Assembly (NCBI GenBank): GCA_021847735.1
Contig: JAJZQD010000019.1
Location: 1 to 34,252, forward strand
DNA: 34,252 bases
Reading direction: 5' to 3'
Source of the DNA: Bacillota bacterium
Lineage (GTDB): Bacteria > Bacillota > Thermincolia > Thermincolales > UBA2595
Within the stretch, counting starts at the first letter, position 1, and every line of letters starts with the position of its first letter. The position numbers were made by a program, and so were the translations under genes. Of this stretch, positions 3,297 to 17,533 are shown in pieces. The notes below the pieces were generated by a model that was given only the letters and a program-made list of their open reading frames with translations, searched no databases and was not told the DNA's origin.

Positions 3297-3746
3297 TTGT
3301 TAAAAGACCGAATTTTGGCCGGAAGTGTCGCCGGCATGATAGCGACACTTGTCAAAGCTGTTCCCAACTTTATTCTTTGGAAGCTCGGGATTGTAAAATA
3401 CCTGTATTTTCAAGTTGCCGCTTCCGCCCTGGTCACCCCACAGGATGTTAATACAACGTTAGGTTTGGTGGTTGGTTTCATCACCGATATTATCACAGGG
3501 GGAAGCCTTGGTTTACTGATTGTATTCTTGTTCAGGTATACCGGGCGAGACTACTGGTGGTATAAAGGGCTGATTGTCGGGAACCTGATTTGGCTTTGGG
3601 GTCTGGGTGAATTAATTAATTTTGGGGCAGCCCGAATTATCCCTCTCCAGCCGGCATTCCGCCTTGCCTCCTTAGTCGACCACCAAATATTTGGGCTCAC
3701 AGCCACATACCTGATAGTAAAATGGTATCCCCGGAACGAAAAGTAG
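3297..3746 (+). CDS. Small membrane protein of unknown function
   Basis: A 149-residue protein starting at TTG 3297, chosen because AGGGGG lies 8 nt upstream. It has about four hydrophobic segments: residues ~5-25, ~38-60 (QVAASALVTPQ...), ~62-82 and ~92-112, with a final amphipathic stretch ending in VKWYPRNEK. I recognise no motif. It stands alone between the broken yyaL gene and a palindromic repeat element that begins 12 bp after its stop. Confidence 0.7.
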   Translation: MLKDRILAGSVAGMIATLVKAVPNFILWKLGIVKYLYFQVAASALVTPQDVNTTLGLVVGFITDIITGGSLGLLIVFLFRYTGRDYWWYKGLIVGNLIWLWGLGELINFGAARIIPLQPAFRLASLVDHQIFGLTATYLIVKWYPRNEK

Positions 3747-3757
3747 GAACGCGTACT

Positions 3758-3877
3758 AAAAGAGGCAGGTATGTTCCTTCGAGCGGCAACAACGCCCGTT
3801 GGCAAACCAATCCCGCTTACGCGGGAAGGTTTGCCGACGGGCGTCAGACCGCTCTCCGGAACACACCTGCCTCTTTT
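3758..3877. repeat. Long palindromic hairpin element, copy 1 (120 bp)
   Basis: The outer arms (3758-3777 and 3858-3877) match as inverted repeats at 19 of 20 positions; the core is GGCAGGTATGTTCC. Inside, further nested arms pair in order: GAGCGG/CCGCTC, ACGCCCGT/ACGGGCGT, GGCAAACC/GGTTTGCC and TCCCGC/GCGGGA around a TTAC loop. The whole element can fold into one long stem. A second copy with the same outer arms and the same nested order lies at 5146-5311. Confidence 0.85.
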
Positions 3878-3891
3878 GGTAAAACGATAAA

Positions 3892-3931
3892 GAAAAAAAG
3901 ATGAAGCTGTCCTAATCTATTTTAGGACAGC
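3892..3931 (-). terminator. Intrinsic terminator of the triheme cytochrome gene
   Basis: GCTGTCCTAA (3906-3915) and TTAGGACAGC (3922-3931) form a 10-bp stem. On the minus strand it is followed, a few bases on, by a T-rich run (complement of 3892-3899). Confidence 0.75.
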
Positions 3932-3941
3932 CCCTTTGTCA

Positions 3942-4580
3942 TTACGGTGTAGGAGTTGGTAGCTCCTCTGGCGTTTGGCTGGTTTTGGGTTGAGCCTGCT
4001 CGCTGCGCTGTTTGGCAGGTTTGGTTGGCTGCACCGTTTTGGGTGGGGTTAATTTTTTGGGTTCCGTTGCCGGACCCGGTACTGATTTTGGTTCAACAGG
4101 CTTTTCGGCAGCGGTCCCTGATCGGTATCCCGCCAGGGGATAACCTTTAATCCCGGATACCCCGTTGGTCTCCACGGTATGACAGGAAAAGCACTGGCCT
4201 TTCATTTTGGTATAAAAAAGCCCGCTTCCCCAGTGGGTTTTATGAATACCCCGGAAAAACCGTTTATACAGGTCATAGTTCTTTTGGGCTTCGTGACAGG
4301 CATAGCAAGCATTGACGCTTGTTTCTTTTACTTCCGGGTGACCCGAAATTCTACGCACATAAGCCGATAACGAGCGGTCAACATCTGCCGTTTTTTTGTG
4401 ACAGGAAACGCAGCCGTTTTCGTAAGAATCTCTGCCTGCCGCTTCCATCAGGTTAGCTGCCGCCGGGGGTTTAACCGGATTCGGGGAAGCGGGCTTCCTG
4501 ACAGCACTCTTCTGGCAGCCGGCAATAACCAAAATTGGAATCAGTAATAGTAGTGTTAAAGGTACAATCCGACGATACAT
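3942..4580 (-). CDS. Triheme c-type cytochrome lipoprotein
   Basis: A 212-residue protein starting at ATG 4580, with AGGAGG 7 nt upstream; the TTG three bases earlier is too close to the ribosome site. Residues 1-22 are a lipoprotein signal ending in VIAGC, so Cys22 would be lipidated and the protein anchored outside the membrane. Three CxxCH heme motifs follow: CVSCH, CYACH and CFSCH, with several further His as possible distal ligands. The last ~60 residues are low-complexity, rich in Pro, Lys, Thr and Gln, and may span the cell wall. Likely role: extracytoplasmic electron transfer. No enzyme is encoded next to it; it is monocistronic with its own terminator. Confidence 0.88.
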   Translation of the reverse strand: MYRRIVPLTLLLLIPILVIAGCQKSAVRKPASPNPVKPPAAANLMEAAGRDSYENGCVSCHKKTADVDRSLSAYVRRISGHPEVKETSVNACYACHEAQKNYDLYKRFFRGIHKTHWGSGLFYTKMKGQCFSCHTVETNGVSGIKGYPLAGYRSGTAAEKPVEPKSVPGPATEPKKLTPPKTVQPTKPAKQRSEQAQPKTSQTPEELPTPTP

Positions 4581-4674
4581 CAATATACCTCCTTTTGGTT
4601 TTTATCTAGTTTCTCCGGTCTTTCGGAATTAATGCTAATTACCGGTAATTTCGATTTGATGAATAACGGTAGGC

Positions 4675-4732
4675 AGCTCAAGTATAATTTTTTAAAAATA
4701 AATAATACTAAACTTGAGCTTTAAAAAATTAT
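4675..4732. promoter_or_regulatory. Interleaved inverted repeats (a-b-a'-b') with a TATAAT box
   Basis: AGCTCAAGT (4675-4683) is inverted at ACTTGAGCT (4712-4720), and the directly adjoining ATAATTTTTTAAA (4684-4696) is inverted exactly at 4720-4732. The order is a-b-a'-b', which in RNA would be an H-type pseudoknot and in DNA could be overlapping operators. A perfect TATAAT lies at 4683-4688, with only a poor -35 region. It sits just upstream of the ribosome site GGAGG (4736-4740) of the next gene. Confidence 0.5.
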
Positions 4733-4752
4733 TTTGGAGGTGTTCTATCCTA

Positions 4753-5112
4753 ATGCATCAACAAATGAGCCTGCTTCAGCAGAATCTTAACCAGATTGCC
4801 CAAATTTGCAACCAGCTAAGCCAAAATGAACAAGCCAACGCCTCAAAACTTATCCAGATGCAGAATGCCGAACGTACCGCCGCTCAACAACTGCAGCACT
4901 GTGCCCAGCTTTGCAGCCAGGTTAGCCAGCAGATGCAGCAGGTAGTTGGCAGTACACAATTTGGCAATGTCAGCCAGCAAGCTTTTTCACCGAGTACCAG
5001 CGACTCCCTTGGTAACATGCAAAGTACCAACTGGGCAAACCGCCCTGTGAGCACCGGCCAATTTTCCACTGCTCCTAATATGGGATCGATTCCCCCATAC
5101 AAAGCCTACTAA
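4753..5112 (+). CDS. Gln-rich small protein, function unknown
   Basis: A 119-residue protein from ATG 4753, with TTGGAGG ending 12 nt upstream. The first ~70 residues are Gln/Asn-rich and predicted helical (MHQQMSLLQQNLNQIAQI...), with heptad-like Leu/Ile spacing and Cys residues in INQL/CAQLC-like positions. The C-terminal ~45 residues are Ser/Asn/Pro-rich and disordered-looking, ending in IPPYKAY. It has no signal peptide. The composition resembles small spore-coat-type proteins of Firmicutes, but I cannot assign it to a family. A clean terminator follows nine bases after the stop. Confidence 0.7.
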   Translation: MHQQMSLLQQNLNQIAQICNQLSQNEQANASKLIQMQNAERTAAQQLQHCAQLCSQVSQQMQQVVGSTQFGNVSQQAFSPSTSDSLGNMQSTNWANRPVSTGQFSTAPNMGSIPPYKAY

Positions 5113-5120
5113 ACCGGCAA

Positions 5121-5146
5121 AGCCCCTGCAAAAGGGGCTTTTTTTG
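5121..5146 (+). terminator. Intrinsic terminator of the Gln-rich protein gene
   Basis: AGCCCCT (5121-5127) pairs with AGGGGCT (5133-5139) around GCAAA and is followed by an unbroken T run. It directly abuts the left arm of the second palindromic element. Confidence 0.9.
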
Positions 5147-5311
5147 GAAAGGGCAGGTATATTCCTTCGGGCGAGCAACAACTCAGCCGGCAAAACTGCT
5201 CCCGCAAACGCGGACCGCAGGCCGGCGGACGTCACAGGCTGTTGAAAAACTTCGTCTAGCTTTGTCACCAGGCCCGTCAGCCTCGCTCCCCGGAACATAC
5301 CTGCCCTTTCC
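5146..5311. repeat. Long palindromic hairpin element, copy 2 (166 bp, with internal insertion)
   Basis: The outer arms 5146-5165 and 5292-5311 match as inverted repeats at 19 of 20 positions and share GGGCAGGTAT..TTCC with copy 1. The interior keeps the same nested order (GGCGAG/CTCGCT, CCGGC/GCCGG, CCGC-aaac-GCGG). It carries about 45 extra bases (roughly 5233-5279) bounded by GTCA on both sides at the place where copy 1 has a single GTCA. Confidence 0.8.
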
Positions 5312-5323
5312 TCTTTTCGAAAA

Positions 5324-5350
5324 CCAAAAAAACTGTCTCTTTGATACAGT
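5324..5350 (-). terminator. Intrinsic terminator of the VanW-family gene
   Basis: On the minus strand ACTGT and ACAGT (complements of 5346-5350 and 5332-5336) form a short stem with inner TC/GA pairs, followed by seven T. Confidence 0.65.
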
Positions 5351-5366
5351 GACTAAAAAATATTGC

Positions 5367-6239
5367 TTAGGGGCCCACGGAAACCAAGCGTGGTGACGGG
5401 CGGTAGGAACTGACCCCTAAATCCCTGGTTATTTCTTTGCCGGTAGATTCGCTGATGACAATCCGGGAATGGACTGATATTCCTTCAGAGCCCTCATATT
5501 TTACTTTCTCCACTCCCTTGGGCAAGGTAGGGTCAAATACACGCTCAGTCCAGGTCTTGGTCCGGCTGAGGGTTTCGTGAACCCACCTGATGTGCGGGGG
5601 TTTGGAAGTCCCGTAAAAGGCGATATATAAAGTACCACCTGTATTTTTTGCCCAGATAAGGATAGGGGCGCCGGTTGTATTCTTGAACTTGAAATCCTTC
5701 GTCCCGTACGATATTGTAGCATCCTGACCCGGTGGAACGTAGGGGACGGTCATGGAATGGGGGTGCCTTTCCACAATTTTCTGGTTAGCCAGGATGGCCA
5801 CATTGTATATTACTGAAGCAATCTTGCATACCCCACCGCCTACTGTGGAGACAATTCGGCCGCCGCTATACATTGGCCCGGGTTTAAATCCCCGGTGGGC
5901 GGAACGCCACCCTACCCTGGAATTCAGGGAAAACACTTCGCCCGGCTTGATTACAGCCCCACGCAGGAAGTCGGCCGCCAGGGAAATGTTATGACGTTCA
6001 TCCAGGATTGGGTCAGGAAGGGTAGCATGGTATTCAGCCATGAGCAGGGGTGTACCGTGCTCTTTTTTGGCCTGCGCAAATTCAGGGTCATTATGCCAGG
6101 GAAGCTGCACGGTGTTTTCACTCCCCGCGGCATTCGGGGGCTGGGGCGCAGGTTTTTTGGCAGGCCCTCCAGCCGCACACCCTGTTGACAATAGAATTAA
6201 TAAAATTATCGGCAAAACCCTGATTCGCACTCCCATCAT
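5367..6239 (-). CDS. VanW-family lipoprotein
   Basis: A 290-residue protein. It begins with tandem ATG codons at 6239 and 6236, with GAGGAG just upstream; the second ATG has the better spacing. The signal ends in LLSTGC, so Cys21 is a likely lipidation site. A Pro/Ala-rich linker follows, then the VanW core: GEVFSLNSRVGWRS, FKPGPMYSGGRIV and VGGGVCKIASVIYNVAI. The last is the family signature with GGGVC and a following YN pair. Family knowledge: VanW occurs in some glycopeptide-resistance clusters and widely in Firmicutes; its biochemical role is not settled, and no van genes are nearby. Monocistronic, with its own terminator at 5324-5350. Confidence 0.88.
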   Translation of the reverse strand: MMGVRIRVLPIILLILLSTGCAAGGPAKKPAPQPPNAAGSENTVQLPWHNDPEFAQAKKEHGTPLLMAEYHATLPDPILDERHNISLAADFLRGAVIKPGEVFSLNSRVGWRSAHRGFKPGPMYSGGRIVSTVGGGVCKIASVIYNVAILANQKIVERHPHSMTVPYVPPGQDATISYGTKDFKFKNTTGAPILIWAKNTGGTLYIAFYGTSKPPHIRWVHETLSRTKTWTERVFDPTLPKGVEKVKYEGSEGISVHSRIVISESTGKEITRDLGVSSYRPSPRLVSVGP

Positions 6240-13751: not shown

Positions 13752-15437
13752 TTAGTTTTTGCCCCAAGCTTCTTTTATCGCCACGATGTCCAAGTCCTTC
13801 CAACTTTCTTTCCACAACTGGAAATAAGGAATATCATTTGATGAAGGCCCTGGATTACATCTATCCATTAGAACAATCGAAGGTAACACAACGGCCTCCC
13901 CAATTAAAAGACACTCCCCAGCCTTCAACGACGGCATTTTATCAACCAAATTACCTAATGTATCAGGAAGAAGTCGTTTTACATAGTTTTGGTCATTTGG
14001 GTTTGTTAATCTCAATGCGAGAAAATTATTGCATTGAGAAAAAATAGTTTCCGAGATTTCTGATGGGCGTTGACTTGCCAACAGCAGAGAAACACCGTAT
14101 TTACGTCCTTCTTTTGCAATTCGTTCAATAGATTGCTTAGAAGCCCTGTACTTAGCCAAATCGCTGTTCGGAACATATTTGTGAGCTTCTTCATAAACTA
14201 GCAATATTGGCACATCGTTGTTTATTTTTTCATCGGGATTAGCTTCGTAGCGTAGGCGTTTATAATAATAGCCGTATTCAAACAGTATTCTCGAAATAAG
14301 CGAAACGGTAATACTCAACACCTCAAATGGCACACCGCTCAAATCAATTATTGTTATGTTAGAAGTCGATTCACCATAGCCAATGAGCTGCTTTAGAGTT
14401 TCCTCAAAAGAGATTTTTTTTGACTTTTCACCTACAAGAAAATCTAATCTTTTGTCGTTAATACGATTTTCCAACCTACTAACGAAGTTGGTTAATTTTC
14501 CATGAAGACTTCCTTGTGTTGTTTTTGGTTGACCCTTTTTTTCACCGGAAGCATATACTTCTCCAGTATCTATAACTTCTGAATTTTTTGTTCGTGCGTA
14601 CGTCAAAACATCGTCTATGTCAAAATATAAAGGTGAGTCAAAATGAATCCTATTCTTTTTTTCTTCCTCTCCATCAAAATGGTTAATTCTGCTGTTGATA
14701 ACAGCTTCCTTGAAAACATTTCTTTGGTTATGGTCATTTGCTTCGGTATCAATAAACAACTCTTGCAACTCATCACTATTCAATAGCCAATATGGAAGAA
14801 CTAAGTTAGAAATATCAATAAAGTTTGCGGCTGGGAATGCCGTCTTGTATTCAGAGTGAATATCAAAAATCACTATGTGGGAATTATTTAGCCCTTTGTA
14901 TTCACCCTCTTTAGAGCTAATGGCGTTTTGAATAATTTTGGCAACAGAGTGCGATTTACCCGAGCCAGTCGAACCAATAATTGCAATGTGTTTATTGAAA
15001 AATTTATCTCCATCGACAGGCACATCAATAGTTGGATTGGTTGACAATTTTGCAAAAGTGAATTTTTTGCCATCTTCTAAAGACTCAGTAAAAATCTTTT
15101 CAATTTCTTCTTGTCTTGCAGGTTCAACTTTTTTGGGAGGAATAGCGATGGTGTCTCCACCACGTTCAAATTTTCCATTACGAATAAGTCCCAATGGATT
15201 TGCTTCCAGAATGTATTTTCGGCGAGGTACTCCTTCAGGGGTAGTACCAACCTCAATAGTAAAATTCTCAATAATAGCAATTAGCACAGCATTGTCATTA
15301 TCGGCAATACGCAAATAAGACCCGACTTTTAATTTTTCTTCCGCAATCTGGAAATCTTCTAAATCATCAACTGAAATTCTAACTTTATTGGGGAACACAG
15401 AGATGACTTCGGCGTTCATCTTTTCTTGTTCAAGCAT
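13752..15437 (-). CDS. herA: HerA-like hexameric DNA translocase ATPase (defence-associated)
   Basis: A 561-residue protein from ATG 15437; its AGGAGG overlaps the stop of the nuclease gene 13 bp upstream, so the two are translationally coupled. An N-terminal HAS-barrel-like beta domain (residues ~1-95) precedes the FtsK/HerA RecA-like ATPase: Walker A GSTGSGKS (155-162), IVIFDIHSEY (~188-197), Walker B PILLVYEEAHKYVP (~410-422, catalytic Glu416/417), and the LLASQRPSEIS sensor/arginine element (~452-462). Family knowledge: HerA forms hexamers that pump DNA and, when paired with SIR2 or DUF4297 nucleases, makes anti-phage complexes. The gene is visibly AT-richer than the flanks, which fits horizontal transfer. 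Confidence 0.93.
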   Translation of the reverse strand: MLEQEKMNAEVISVFPNKVRISVDDLEDFQIAEEKLKVGSYLRIADNDNAVLIAIIENFTIEVGTTPEGVPRRKYILEANPLGLIRNGKFERGGDTIAIPPKKVEPARQEEIEKIFTESLEDGKKFTFAKLSTNPTIDVPVDGDKFFNKHIAIIGSTGSGKSHSVAKIIQNAISSKEGEYKGLNNSHIVIFDIHSEYKTAFPAANFIDISNLVLPYWLLNSDELQELFIDTEANDHNQRNVFKEAVINSRINHFDGEEEKKNRIHFDSPLYFDIDDVLTYARTKNSEVIDTGEVYASGEKKGQPKTTQGSLHGKLTNFVSRLENRINDKRLDFLVGEKSKKISFEETLKQLIGYGESTSNITIIDLSGVPFEVLSITVSLISRILFEYGYYYKRLRYEANPDEKINNDVPILLVYEEAHKYVPNSDLAKYRASKQSIERIAKEGRKYGVSLLLASQRPSEISETIFSQCNNFLALRLTNPNDQNYVKRLLPDTLGNLVDKMPSLKAGECLLIGEAVVLPSIVLMDRCNPGPSSNDIPYFQLWKESWKDLDIVAIKEAWGKN

Positions 15438-15450
15438 TTCGAAAACCTCC

Positions 15451-16653
15451 TCAAATAATGGAACTAATATTCATTGTTTCTTCAACTTGAATTTTAATAT
15501 GCTTGTAGTTATTATTCGTGTAATATGTTTCGGTAATATAAAACTGATATAACTCTCGTGTCGTGCAAATAGAGTTCAGAATATCATCGATTTGATCAAT
15601 GTCGTTGATGATTTTCAATTTCACATTGTTATGAGCAGTTGCCTTTCTGCATAGCGACTTTGCGCAAAAATCTGCGTCCTTAAAGTCATAACCGTCCCAA
15701 AAATAGAAATCATCCGATTGAAGTGCCTTTTTTAAGTTTAGCAAGGTAGGTTCCGAAACATTTTGCAAGTAAACATAAGGGCAGAATGGTTTACTCTCCC
15801 TAAGCGAAAGTTTGCTCCAGTTTTTCGAAATGTTGAGTAATAGTGATTTCAGCTCTGCTTCCGTCGTAGTATTATCACACTCAATCAGAAAGAACCTTTC
15901 AAAAGGTGAAACATTTCTTGGAGAAAAGTATTGAACTTTTACCGATTGACAGTAAATTTTAATTCCCTTTTTCTTCAAAAACCATAGATTAAACAAGGCA
16001 TTTTTATTGTTGATTTTGGCTAAGAACTCACTTTTGGATATAGTTCTTTCGGTAACATTCTGTTTTGTAGATAACTCTTTTACTACTCGAAGAGCATTAT
16101 TGTAGTAATAATGCTCCGCTTCAAATGCGTTACAGGAAAAAAGAACTTTAATCTTGTCAATTATTTTTCTCTCCTGTTGAGTAAAGTCAAGAGCGTATAC
16201 ATCAATGCTCAAATGACTCAAAAAATCAATAATTTCAGTATCCGTCAATCCTAAGTCAACATGGTATTCATGCTTTGTTTTTCCTTCTGTATAAGTAAAG
16301 AACTTGCTTTTAGCGAATGCTAAGTCAATATTTGATGGCAATTTTTCCTGCCCTGATGAGTAGTATCCATATATTTTGTACTGCAATGATCTACTTATTG
16401 AGCTTGATGCTGCATAGTGGCTTAACATCAAGCGAATGGGTTTGGCGATGACAGAGTGATTGTATTCTGTTTTTGAATAATATTTACATTGGACAGCTAT
16501 GGTTTCATCAACGTTTTTTATATCAACATCCTCGATGCCTTCAATGCAAACGCTATCTGAACCATTTTGTTGTTCTAACAGTTTCAAAATATAGTAATCA
16601 AATTGATAGTAATATCCTGTTATGGTATCTATAGCAGATCTGTCATTCTCCAT
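15451..16653 (-). CDS. DUF4297/Cap4-like PD-(D/E)xK nuclease partner of HerA
   Basis: A 400-residue protein starting at ATG 16653, with AAGGAGGG 5 nt upstream. The N-terminus shows the DUF4297-type nuclease fold: SAIDTITGYYYQFDYYILKLLEQ (helix), then CIEGIEDVDI (acidic residues Glu38, Asp42, Asp44) and AVQCKYY (Gln55-x-Lys57), the D...QxK active site of restriction-like enzymes. The remaining ~300 residues are helical with many Tyr/Phe/Asn and no recognised domain; in relatives this part contacts HerA. It is the first gene of a two-gene operon with herA. The expected role is cleavage of invading or host DNA in a HerA-nuclease supercomplex. Family assignment is from motif pattern and context, not a search. 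Confidence 0.8.
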   Translation of the reverse strand: MENDRSAIDTITGYYYQFDYYILKLLEQQNGSDSVCIEGIEDVDIKNVDETIAVQCKYYSKTEYNHSVIAKPIRLMLSHYAASSSISRSLQYKIYGYYSSGQEKLPSNIDLAFAKSKFFTYTEGKTKHEYHVDLGLTDTEIIDFLSHLSIDVYALDFTQQERKIIDKIKVLFSCNAFEAEHYYYNNALRVVKELSTKQNVTERTISKSEFLAKINNKNALFNLWFLKKKGIKIYCQSVKVQYFSPRNVSPFERFFLIECDNTTTEAELKSLLLNISKNWSKLSLRESKPFCPYVYLQNVSEPTLLNLKKALQSDDFYFWDGYDFKDADFCAKSLCRKATAHNNVKLKIINDIDQIDDILNSICTTRELYQFYITETYYTNNNYKHIKIQVEETMNISSII

Positions 16654-16792: not shown

Positions 16793-17533
16793 GTAGACAA
16801 TAGCGGCTGTTAGCATTTTTTGTTTCCCCAGCCTACTCCCCACAATTGTAAATCATAACCGTGAACCGAATGAACCCTATTTTGACAAGGAAGGGCGTCC
16901 CTGCCCTTACGCATCATCTCTTTTTATCACCATTATTCGACTTAACACAAGTCAAATCCTTTTCCTGGAAAGTTATGAATTGCGATATTAATCATGACCA
17001 CCATTTACTAGTTCTATTAAGTAGTTAAAACTCATCCTTTGTGTACTTTGTGACTTAGTGGTAATAATCCCCCGTCTTTTATCCGCGTAACATCCGCGTC
17101 CATCCGCGGCTGTCTCCCGTTTTTCCTGTTTCTTTTGGTTAACCGGCCATAAACAAAAAACGTGACTTAATCGGTCACGCTTAATCTCTGCGCCTTTGCG
17201 CACTGCGGTATCTTTTTCGGTTTTTTCCCCTTTTTTAGTTTACTTGGCCTGTTAAGTAATTAAAACTCAGACTTTGTGACTTAGTGGGACTTATCCCCTG
17301 TCTTTTATCCGCGTCATCCGTGTTCATCCGCGGCCGTTTTCCGTTCTATCTGTTCCTTTTGTTTAACCGGTCACTCTCCATCTCCGCGCTCTAGGTACGG
17401 GTACGGTTTTAATTGTCAATTTTCAATTTTCAATTATCAATTGTCAATTGTTCTCTGTGTCCTCTGTGCCCTCGTGGTTGCCCTTTCTTTCTATTTCCAC
17501 GAGGGCCTCCCCCCCTGCCTCTTACTTTTTTTA
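16793..17533. repeat. Non-coding tract of modular dispersed repeats
   Basis: No credible gene. Two ~125-bp direct repeats (17019-17148 and 17252-17373) share CTTTGTGACTTAGTGG, then TCTTTTATCCGCGT..CATCCGYGTYCATCCGCGGC, then GTTTAACCGG. Between and after them are TCTGCGCCTTTGCGCACTGCGG (17187-17208), a tandem TCAATTNT tract (17411-17449) and TCTCTGTGTCCTCTGTGCCC (17452-17471). A 10-bp stem GCCCTCGTGG/CCACGAGGGC (17468-17477 with 17497-17506) and the hairpin CGTGAC-N7-GTCACG (17161-17179) are also present. Peptide-like open frames here (for example 16988-17203 on the minus strand) are by-products of the repeats. Confidence 0.8.

Follow-up and report, generated by a model that had tools for sequence, protein, structure and literature searches.

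A class-wide family of probable palindromic mobile elements in Thermincola and its relatives, met as two long hairpins behind genes

The window (the whole stretch of 34,252 nt analysed here, from a 2.18-Mb MAG, G000, that is 61.8% complete) carries two long nested hairpins behind genes, which raises the question of whether these are ordinary terminators, structured RNAs or copies of something that moves. Both are probably members of a class-wide, non-autonomous family of MITE- or REPIN-like mobile hairpins; the assignment of the window copies is made by their sequence and structure.

The two window copies and their surroundings

The hairpins described in an earlier note on this DNA are real and lie where it put them (Table 1). 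Copy 1 is bounded by arms of 33 nt with 85% complementarity (3754-3786/3849-3881; inverted-repeat scan, item I1) and copy 2 by arms of 30 nt with 83% complementarity (5146-5175/5282-5311; item I3), and within the 20-bp outer arms 19 of 20 positions pair in each copy, as claimed. When compared with covariance models of the family, copy 1 matched model R3 over the core (3756-3879) with 92 bits on the minus strand (E 1.4e-18) and 60.8 bits on the plus strand, and copy 2 matched model R1 at 5144-5313 (E 1.2e-16). The plus-strand folds reach -91.9 kcal/mol (z -14.1) for copy 1 and -80.9 kcal/mol (z -7.0) for copy 2, all shuffles being weaker. The minus strand beats the plus strand in both (-97.6 kcal/mol, z -15.0, and -94.5 kcal/mol, z -8.2), a point that goes beyond the earlier note.

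Each copy sits between convergent genes, a few to ~35 nt beyond the plus-strand stop codon and so, as first described, just past a gene end: copy 1 between gene ends at 3746 (plus) and 3942 (minus), copy 2 between 5112 (plus) and 5367 (minus). This position 3' of genes, together with a short minus-strand match of the terminator scan within copy 1, is what two ordinary chance or terminator hairpins would show. The neighbouring genes have separate terminator-like hairpins that adjoin the copies (Table 1), so the elements are not simply the terminators of these genes. As the hairpins also belong to a conserved, covarying family of tens of copies, we regard the chance or terminator reading as refuted, with next to no probability left to it.

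Copy 2 was said to carry ~45 extra bases between short repeats; there are 40 between two copies of CGTCA, hence ~45 with one repeat counted, and relatives that lack the insert have a single CGTCA at the corresponding place. The first 35 nt of the insert are the same, base for base, as those that open a ~240-bp repeat at G000:C38:4449, of which the first 15 nt recur at C101, C147 and C163 of the same genome. Judged by this identity, the insert derives, in truncated form, from another repeat family, again a point beyond the earlier note. That other family, also palindromic, measures ~160-240 bp in G000, starts with CAGGCTGTTGAAAAAC (L292 at G000:C38:4449; L314 at G000:C101:6387) and has an end that resembles the TGTTGACAAAG end of Thermincola copies.

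Elsewhere in the window, a 44-nt direct repeat (17045-17088 and 17271-17314; 91% identical, 226 nt apart) lies in a gene-poor stretch. Two adjacent minus-strand ORFs at 13752-16653, one ATPase-like (561 aa, with a GSTGSGKS motif) and one of 400 aa, are possibly a defence pair, judged by eye.

Table 1. Positions of the hairpin elements and adjoining features in the window
Feature	Position	Strand	Basis
Hairpin element, copy 1	3754..3881	- (better-folding strand)	inverted arms, covariance match, fold
Hairpin element, copy 2, with extra insert	5146..5311	- (better-folding strand)	inverted arms, covariance match, fold
Terminator-like hairpin of minus-strand gene 3942-4583, adjoins copy 1	3903..3934	-	terminator scan, 13 pairs then ATCTTTTTTT
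Terminator-like hairpin of plus-strand gene ending 5112, adjoins copy 2	5121..5145	+	sequence read: AGCCCCTGCAAAAGGGGCT then T run
Terminator-like hairpin of minus-strand gene 5367-6239, adjoins copy 2	5332..5350	-	sequence read: ACTGTATCAAAGAGACAGT then T run on minus strand
40-nt insert in copy 2, CAGGCTGTTGAAAAACTTCGTCTAGCTTTGTCACCAGGCC, truncated piece of other repeat family	5235..5274	+	identity to repeat starts elsewhere in G000
CGTCA, left direct repeat of insert	5230..5234	+	sequence read
CGTCA, right direct repeat of insert	5275..5279	+	sequence read

Family range, covariation, strand and location

A DNA search with copy 1 found ~40 further places in G000. The genome-wide covariance search that had been suggested for this locus likewise turned up many copies: model R1 gave 64 high-scoring places in G000 and, at E<=1e-4, ~15 more that are partial or weaker (about 79 in all); under stricter filters it gave 7 to 53 matches in each of nine out of nine relatives of the same class, and none in the 51 genomes tested that represent other families of the phylum. 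A second model, R3, for the folded strand, matched in all ten class genomes, with at least 12 matches per genome when both strands are counted. Where matches in GTDB contigs carried names, these were Thermincola ferriacetica and HGW-Firmicutes MAGs, and 12 of 12 such loci fit R3; a lone pattern match in Catenulispora does not fit R3 and was rejected. Carriage by viruses was considered from a 14-base motif present in 117 stretches of viral contigs, and was dropped: none of the 80 loci listed fits the model, so those motif matches are taken as chance. The element had no match in Rfam, either in the window or at loci of five relatives, nor in phage and plasmid collections, and the papers searched for repeats in Thermincola or Desulfotomaculum gave no description of the hairpin family.

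This is a previously unlisted family of palindromic mobile elements of ~125-200 bp that extends through the class (Thermincola and relatives); the core measures ~125 bp, or ~200 bp with the ends, and has no coding capacity. The earlier note's candidate, a new MITE/REP-like or RNA element, is supported by a class-wide, multi-copy family that is mobile, as empty sites and target duplications in relatives show (see below), and its counter-case, which would require that further copies and covariation both be lacking, is far from holding. In G002, a selenocysteine tRNA (L066:1877-1970) lies close to one copy.

Among 47 diverse copies, 92.2% of cells pair over 50 base pairs. Changes on both sides occur at 36 of the 50 pairs (312 cells, against 91 in shuffles), and the covariation score is 0.422, compared with 0.085-0.108 when the partner is slid. 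The outer arms read approximately GGCAGRTRTRTTCC plus the pairing partner; an internal motif, CUGAC with GUUGU, is conserved, and one U-G pair is present in 47 of 47 sequences. The arms carry no constant tag, and CGTC occurs within an inner conserved motif of many copies, not at a unit end; REP units are 20-40 bp long and tagged GTAG or CGTC. Paired changes had been read as selection on structure or renewal by copying, and this pair of causes stands, since covariation lies far above controls and exchange between copies is seen in relatives. Copying, from arm to arm or from one copy to another, may account for part of the covariation in place of selection. Such extreme covariation and the conserved wobble motif would also suit a functional structured RNA, a 3'-UTR element or small RNA held by selection after an ancient spread, with mobility incidental.

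The same element strand folds better in 112 of 114 distinct copies, with a mean gain of 10.6 kcal/mol, and G-U pairs number 495 on the better-folding strand and 135 on the other. Near-fixed wobble pairs make up much of this difference, and the strand preference at conserved positions is clear. At 40 mostly Watson-Crick pairs G-U exceeds A-C (91 vs 45 cells), and by pair the count is only 19 vs 10 (p 0.14); this modest preference counts against the mobile-element reading and does no more than hint at ongoing strand-specific selection, and strand-biased deamination could add to it. In G005 the preference is larger for copies whose folded strand has the sense of the genes (14.0 vs 7.2 kcal/mol), which favours a structured RNA, but G000 shows no such difference between sense and antisense copies (p 0.66). 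In 32 of 46 copies the folded strand runs against the strand on which most of the local genes are coded (p 0.011); we dropped replication-strand bias as an explanation, this excess being too weak to build on. A folded-strand promoter was also rejected: since it is confined to a TTGACA-ended sub-family and found on both sides, it was not counted as evidence of transcription.

Gene context, assigned by a simple ORF method to 105 copies with two flanking genes, was convergent for 41, tandem for 60 and divergent for four. Compared with G007 intergenic gaps of at least 180 nt (39 convergent, 232 tandem, 74 divergent), divergent contexts are depleted (p 6e-6) and convergent ones enriched (p 1e-9). 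In tandem contexts the median distance to the 3' end of the upstream gene is 39 nt where the folded strand is antisense and 66 nt where it is sense. REPs have a comparable location preference (PMC3733652). Orientation in tandem contexts is mixed (39 antisense, 21 sense to genes), which argues against a structured RNA. An integron attC site was rejected because orientation is not uniform and copies are dispersed over many contigs and not in arrays.

Insertion at terminator-like hairpins and later reworking

Recent copies in G005 end in CAGGCTGTTGACAAAG / GTTTGTCAATAAGCTG, which are terminal inverted repeats; G007 copies end likewise, and one G009 copy has related ends. These repeats are defined for the G005 and G007 copies rather than for those of the window. 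Recent G005 copies have an identical terminator-like hairpin on either side, as a direct repeat. At L150@3997 (G005) both flanks read GGATTAGGGCAGCCTAAGGCTGCCCTAATC, one being short of a base, and the empty sites (G007:C1:17694-17731 and G008:C17:30832-30863) hold a single hairpin without the element, the neighbouring genes aligning on both sides. G005 thus has two hairpins around the element where the related species G007 and G008 have one, which shows transposition with a target duplication of unusual length. At L150@12742, G005 and G007 carry the element and G008 does not. Direct hairpin repeats of 17-38 nt flank 6 of 8 clean, end-bounded copies and 0 of 2000 mismatched pairs, and near-identical copies at separate loci (L135, L142, L150, L156) show recent spread. 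In G005, the target duplication is the whole terminator-like hairpin. The check for target-site duplications that had been proposed was thus positive in relatives of the genus Thermincola (G005, G007), the one genus in which duplications are shown, and negative in the window, where none is visible at copies 1 and 2. The family has the structural features of a MITE, with the target duplication found in the sister genus only. Two apparently orthologous loci, L284 (G005:C19:170583) and L265 (G007:C18:13840), consist of the two ends only, the core missing.

In a synteny comparison, 17 G005 copies were placed in the examined 1.59 Mb of G007. Among the pairs inspected, the core is inverted and the outer arms retained at L131@13875, where the inner part is near-identical after reverse complementing, and also at L138 and L132@4118. 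At L141, L143 and L152 the inner hairpin has been swapped, both arms jointly, with the outer arms kept. L145 differs from its orthologue by an internal deletion, and at L146 the element is present at one of the orthologous places and absent from the other. Palindromic inserts were seen as well: one of 52 nt, TACCCCAAGGGTAC, in the apical region (L139 compared with G007; a similar piece in eight copies) and one of ~70 nt, GGGGGTCCCCCC, between GACGT and AGCC in the G007 counterparts of L131, L132 and L138. These two pieces are optional and occupy fixed element positions, with examples at L106:2869-3043, L134:3987-4161, L281 and L283. Because the genomes are MAGs, single rearrangements may be assembly errors; with so many loci reworked, assembly error is unlikely to explain them all.

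Orthologous copies are often kept in place. Those at L142, L144, L153 and L155 are nearly unchanged, some being closer to each other than their flanks, which counts against a mobile element and fits a maintained function such as that of a structured RNA. Recent transposition, and the inverted, deleted or newly inserted parts of orthologous copies, speak against the RNA explanation, and altogether we consider it unlikely.

Candidate moving enzymes and known systems

Gene searches of the class genomes led us to drop IS200-type, RAYT and reverse-transcriptase enzymes as drivers. The Y1 transposases tested were of IS200 type, and an IS200/IS605-derived element was rejected since G002 and G004 (75% complete) have copies and no Y1_Tnp match. 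The IS200/IS605 mechanism is not known to leave a target duplication. A retroposon, in which a reverse transcriptase places an RNA copy in the genome with a long target duplication, would account for the folded-strand preference and the long, variable duplications. However, no reverse transcriptase was found in G008 (99% complete, with copies) or G004, G005, where copies are recent, has a fragment only, and the terminal inverted repeats are a sign of a DNA transposon, making a retroposon very improbable. A true REPIN/REP system moved by RAYT would explain the inverted doublet folded into a single long hairpin, its compensatory changes and the copies behind genes (PMC3116915, PMC3733652), but RAYT (NF047646) was above the curated cut-off in 0 of 10 class genomes, the Y1 enzymes are of the type just given and a target duplication is present; this reading is largely refuted and its residual probability slight. 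Searches for an autonomous partner gave deleted, partial or chance copies only (single-arm search) and no coding partner with the element's ends in the genomes searched (end-sequence search); this counts against the mobile-element reading, although such a partner may be gone from these genomes or sit in sequence missing from the assemblies. As no RAYT, reverse transcriptase or coding partner accounts for the movement, we infer a transposase supplied in trans.

In G005, then, the complete ~200-bp element with its two ends has transposed, presumably by means of that transposase, into intrinsic-terminator-like hairpins behind genes and has duplicated the entire hairpin of 17-38 nt. Orthologous places show that the hairpin is reworked later with its pairing kept: cores are inverted, inner cassettes are exchanged, internal parts are deleted, and palindromic inserts arrive, precise and nested. 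Since conserved G-U wobbles favour the same strand class-wide, the recognised form may be one strand, as single-stranded DNA or RNA. Copies might persist behind genes because insertion is harmless there, or because it adds terminator or 3'-end stability. A bolder version, which we hold to be unlikely, has the element spread in a single-stranded form, RNA or ssDNA, that is folded on one strand only and goes into terminator hairpins, the whole hairpin being duplicated. If true, transposition would follow a new mechanism: the hairpin elements would live as parasites of intrinsic terminators, and cassette exchange and inversion would renew their stems.

In this hairpin-transposon family, related genomes record the choice of target (terminators), its duplication (the whole terminator) and the reworking that follows, and selection, gene conversion between copies and flipping can be compared here as sources of compensatory change. 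Ambiguity over such change touches covariation-based RNA family discovery in general, and a large covarying repeat family would otherwise pass for an ordinary non-coding RNA.

Among known systems, mitochondrial repetitive or double hairpin elements are mobile hairpins that stay paired as their sequence changes, and long target duplications have been reported for IS families such as IS1634 and IS1182. Compared with the mitochondrial double hairpin elements (PMC2800124), the present elements are bacterial, larger and accompanied by a terminator-hairpin target duplication. Rickettsia palindromic elements are likewise palindromic, ~150 bp long and present in many copies, but often lie within genes in frame, whereas the present elements lie behind genes (PMC10969869). 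Palindrome-targeting insertion sequences also use hairpins between genes as targets (PMC1525189); unlike these and the long-duplication IS, the element is non-coding, and the searched genomes yielded no such IS with its ends. REPINs and REPs with RAYT (PMC3116915, PMC3733652, PMC2817692) share the inverted organisation, the single long hairpin, the compensatory changes and the numerous extragenic copies, which lie behind genes in convergent or tandem arrangement; the present element differs in its larger size, in the lack of RAYT in the class and in its duplication of a terminator hairpin. Finally, prokaryotic MITEs, including BOX, RUP and SPRITE of Streptococcus pneumoniae, are similarly non-coding and multi-copy, with terminal inverted repeats, target duplication, insertion into one another and terminator-like features (PMC10969869). 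No parent IS was found for the present family, which is set apart from MITEs by a duplication that comprises a whole 17-38 nt terminator hairpin and by a deeply covarying core with class-wide motifs.
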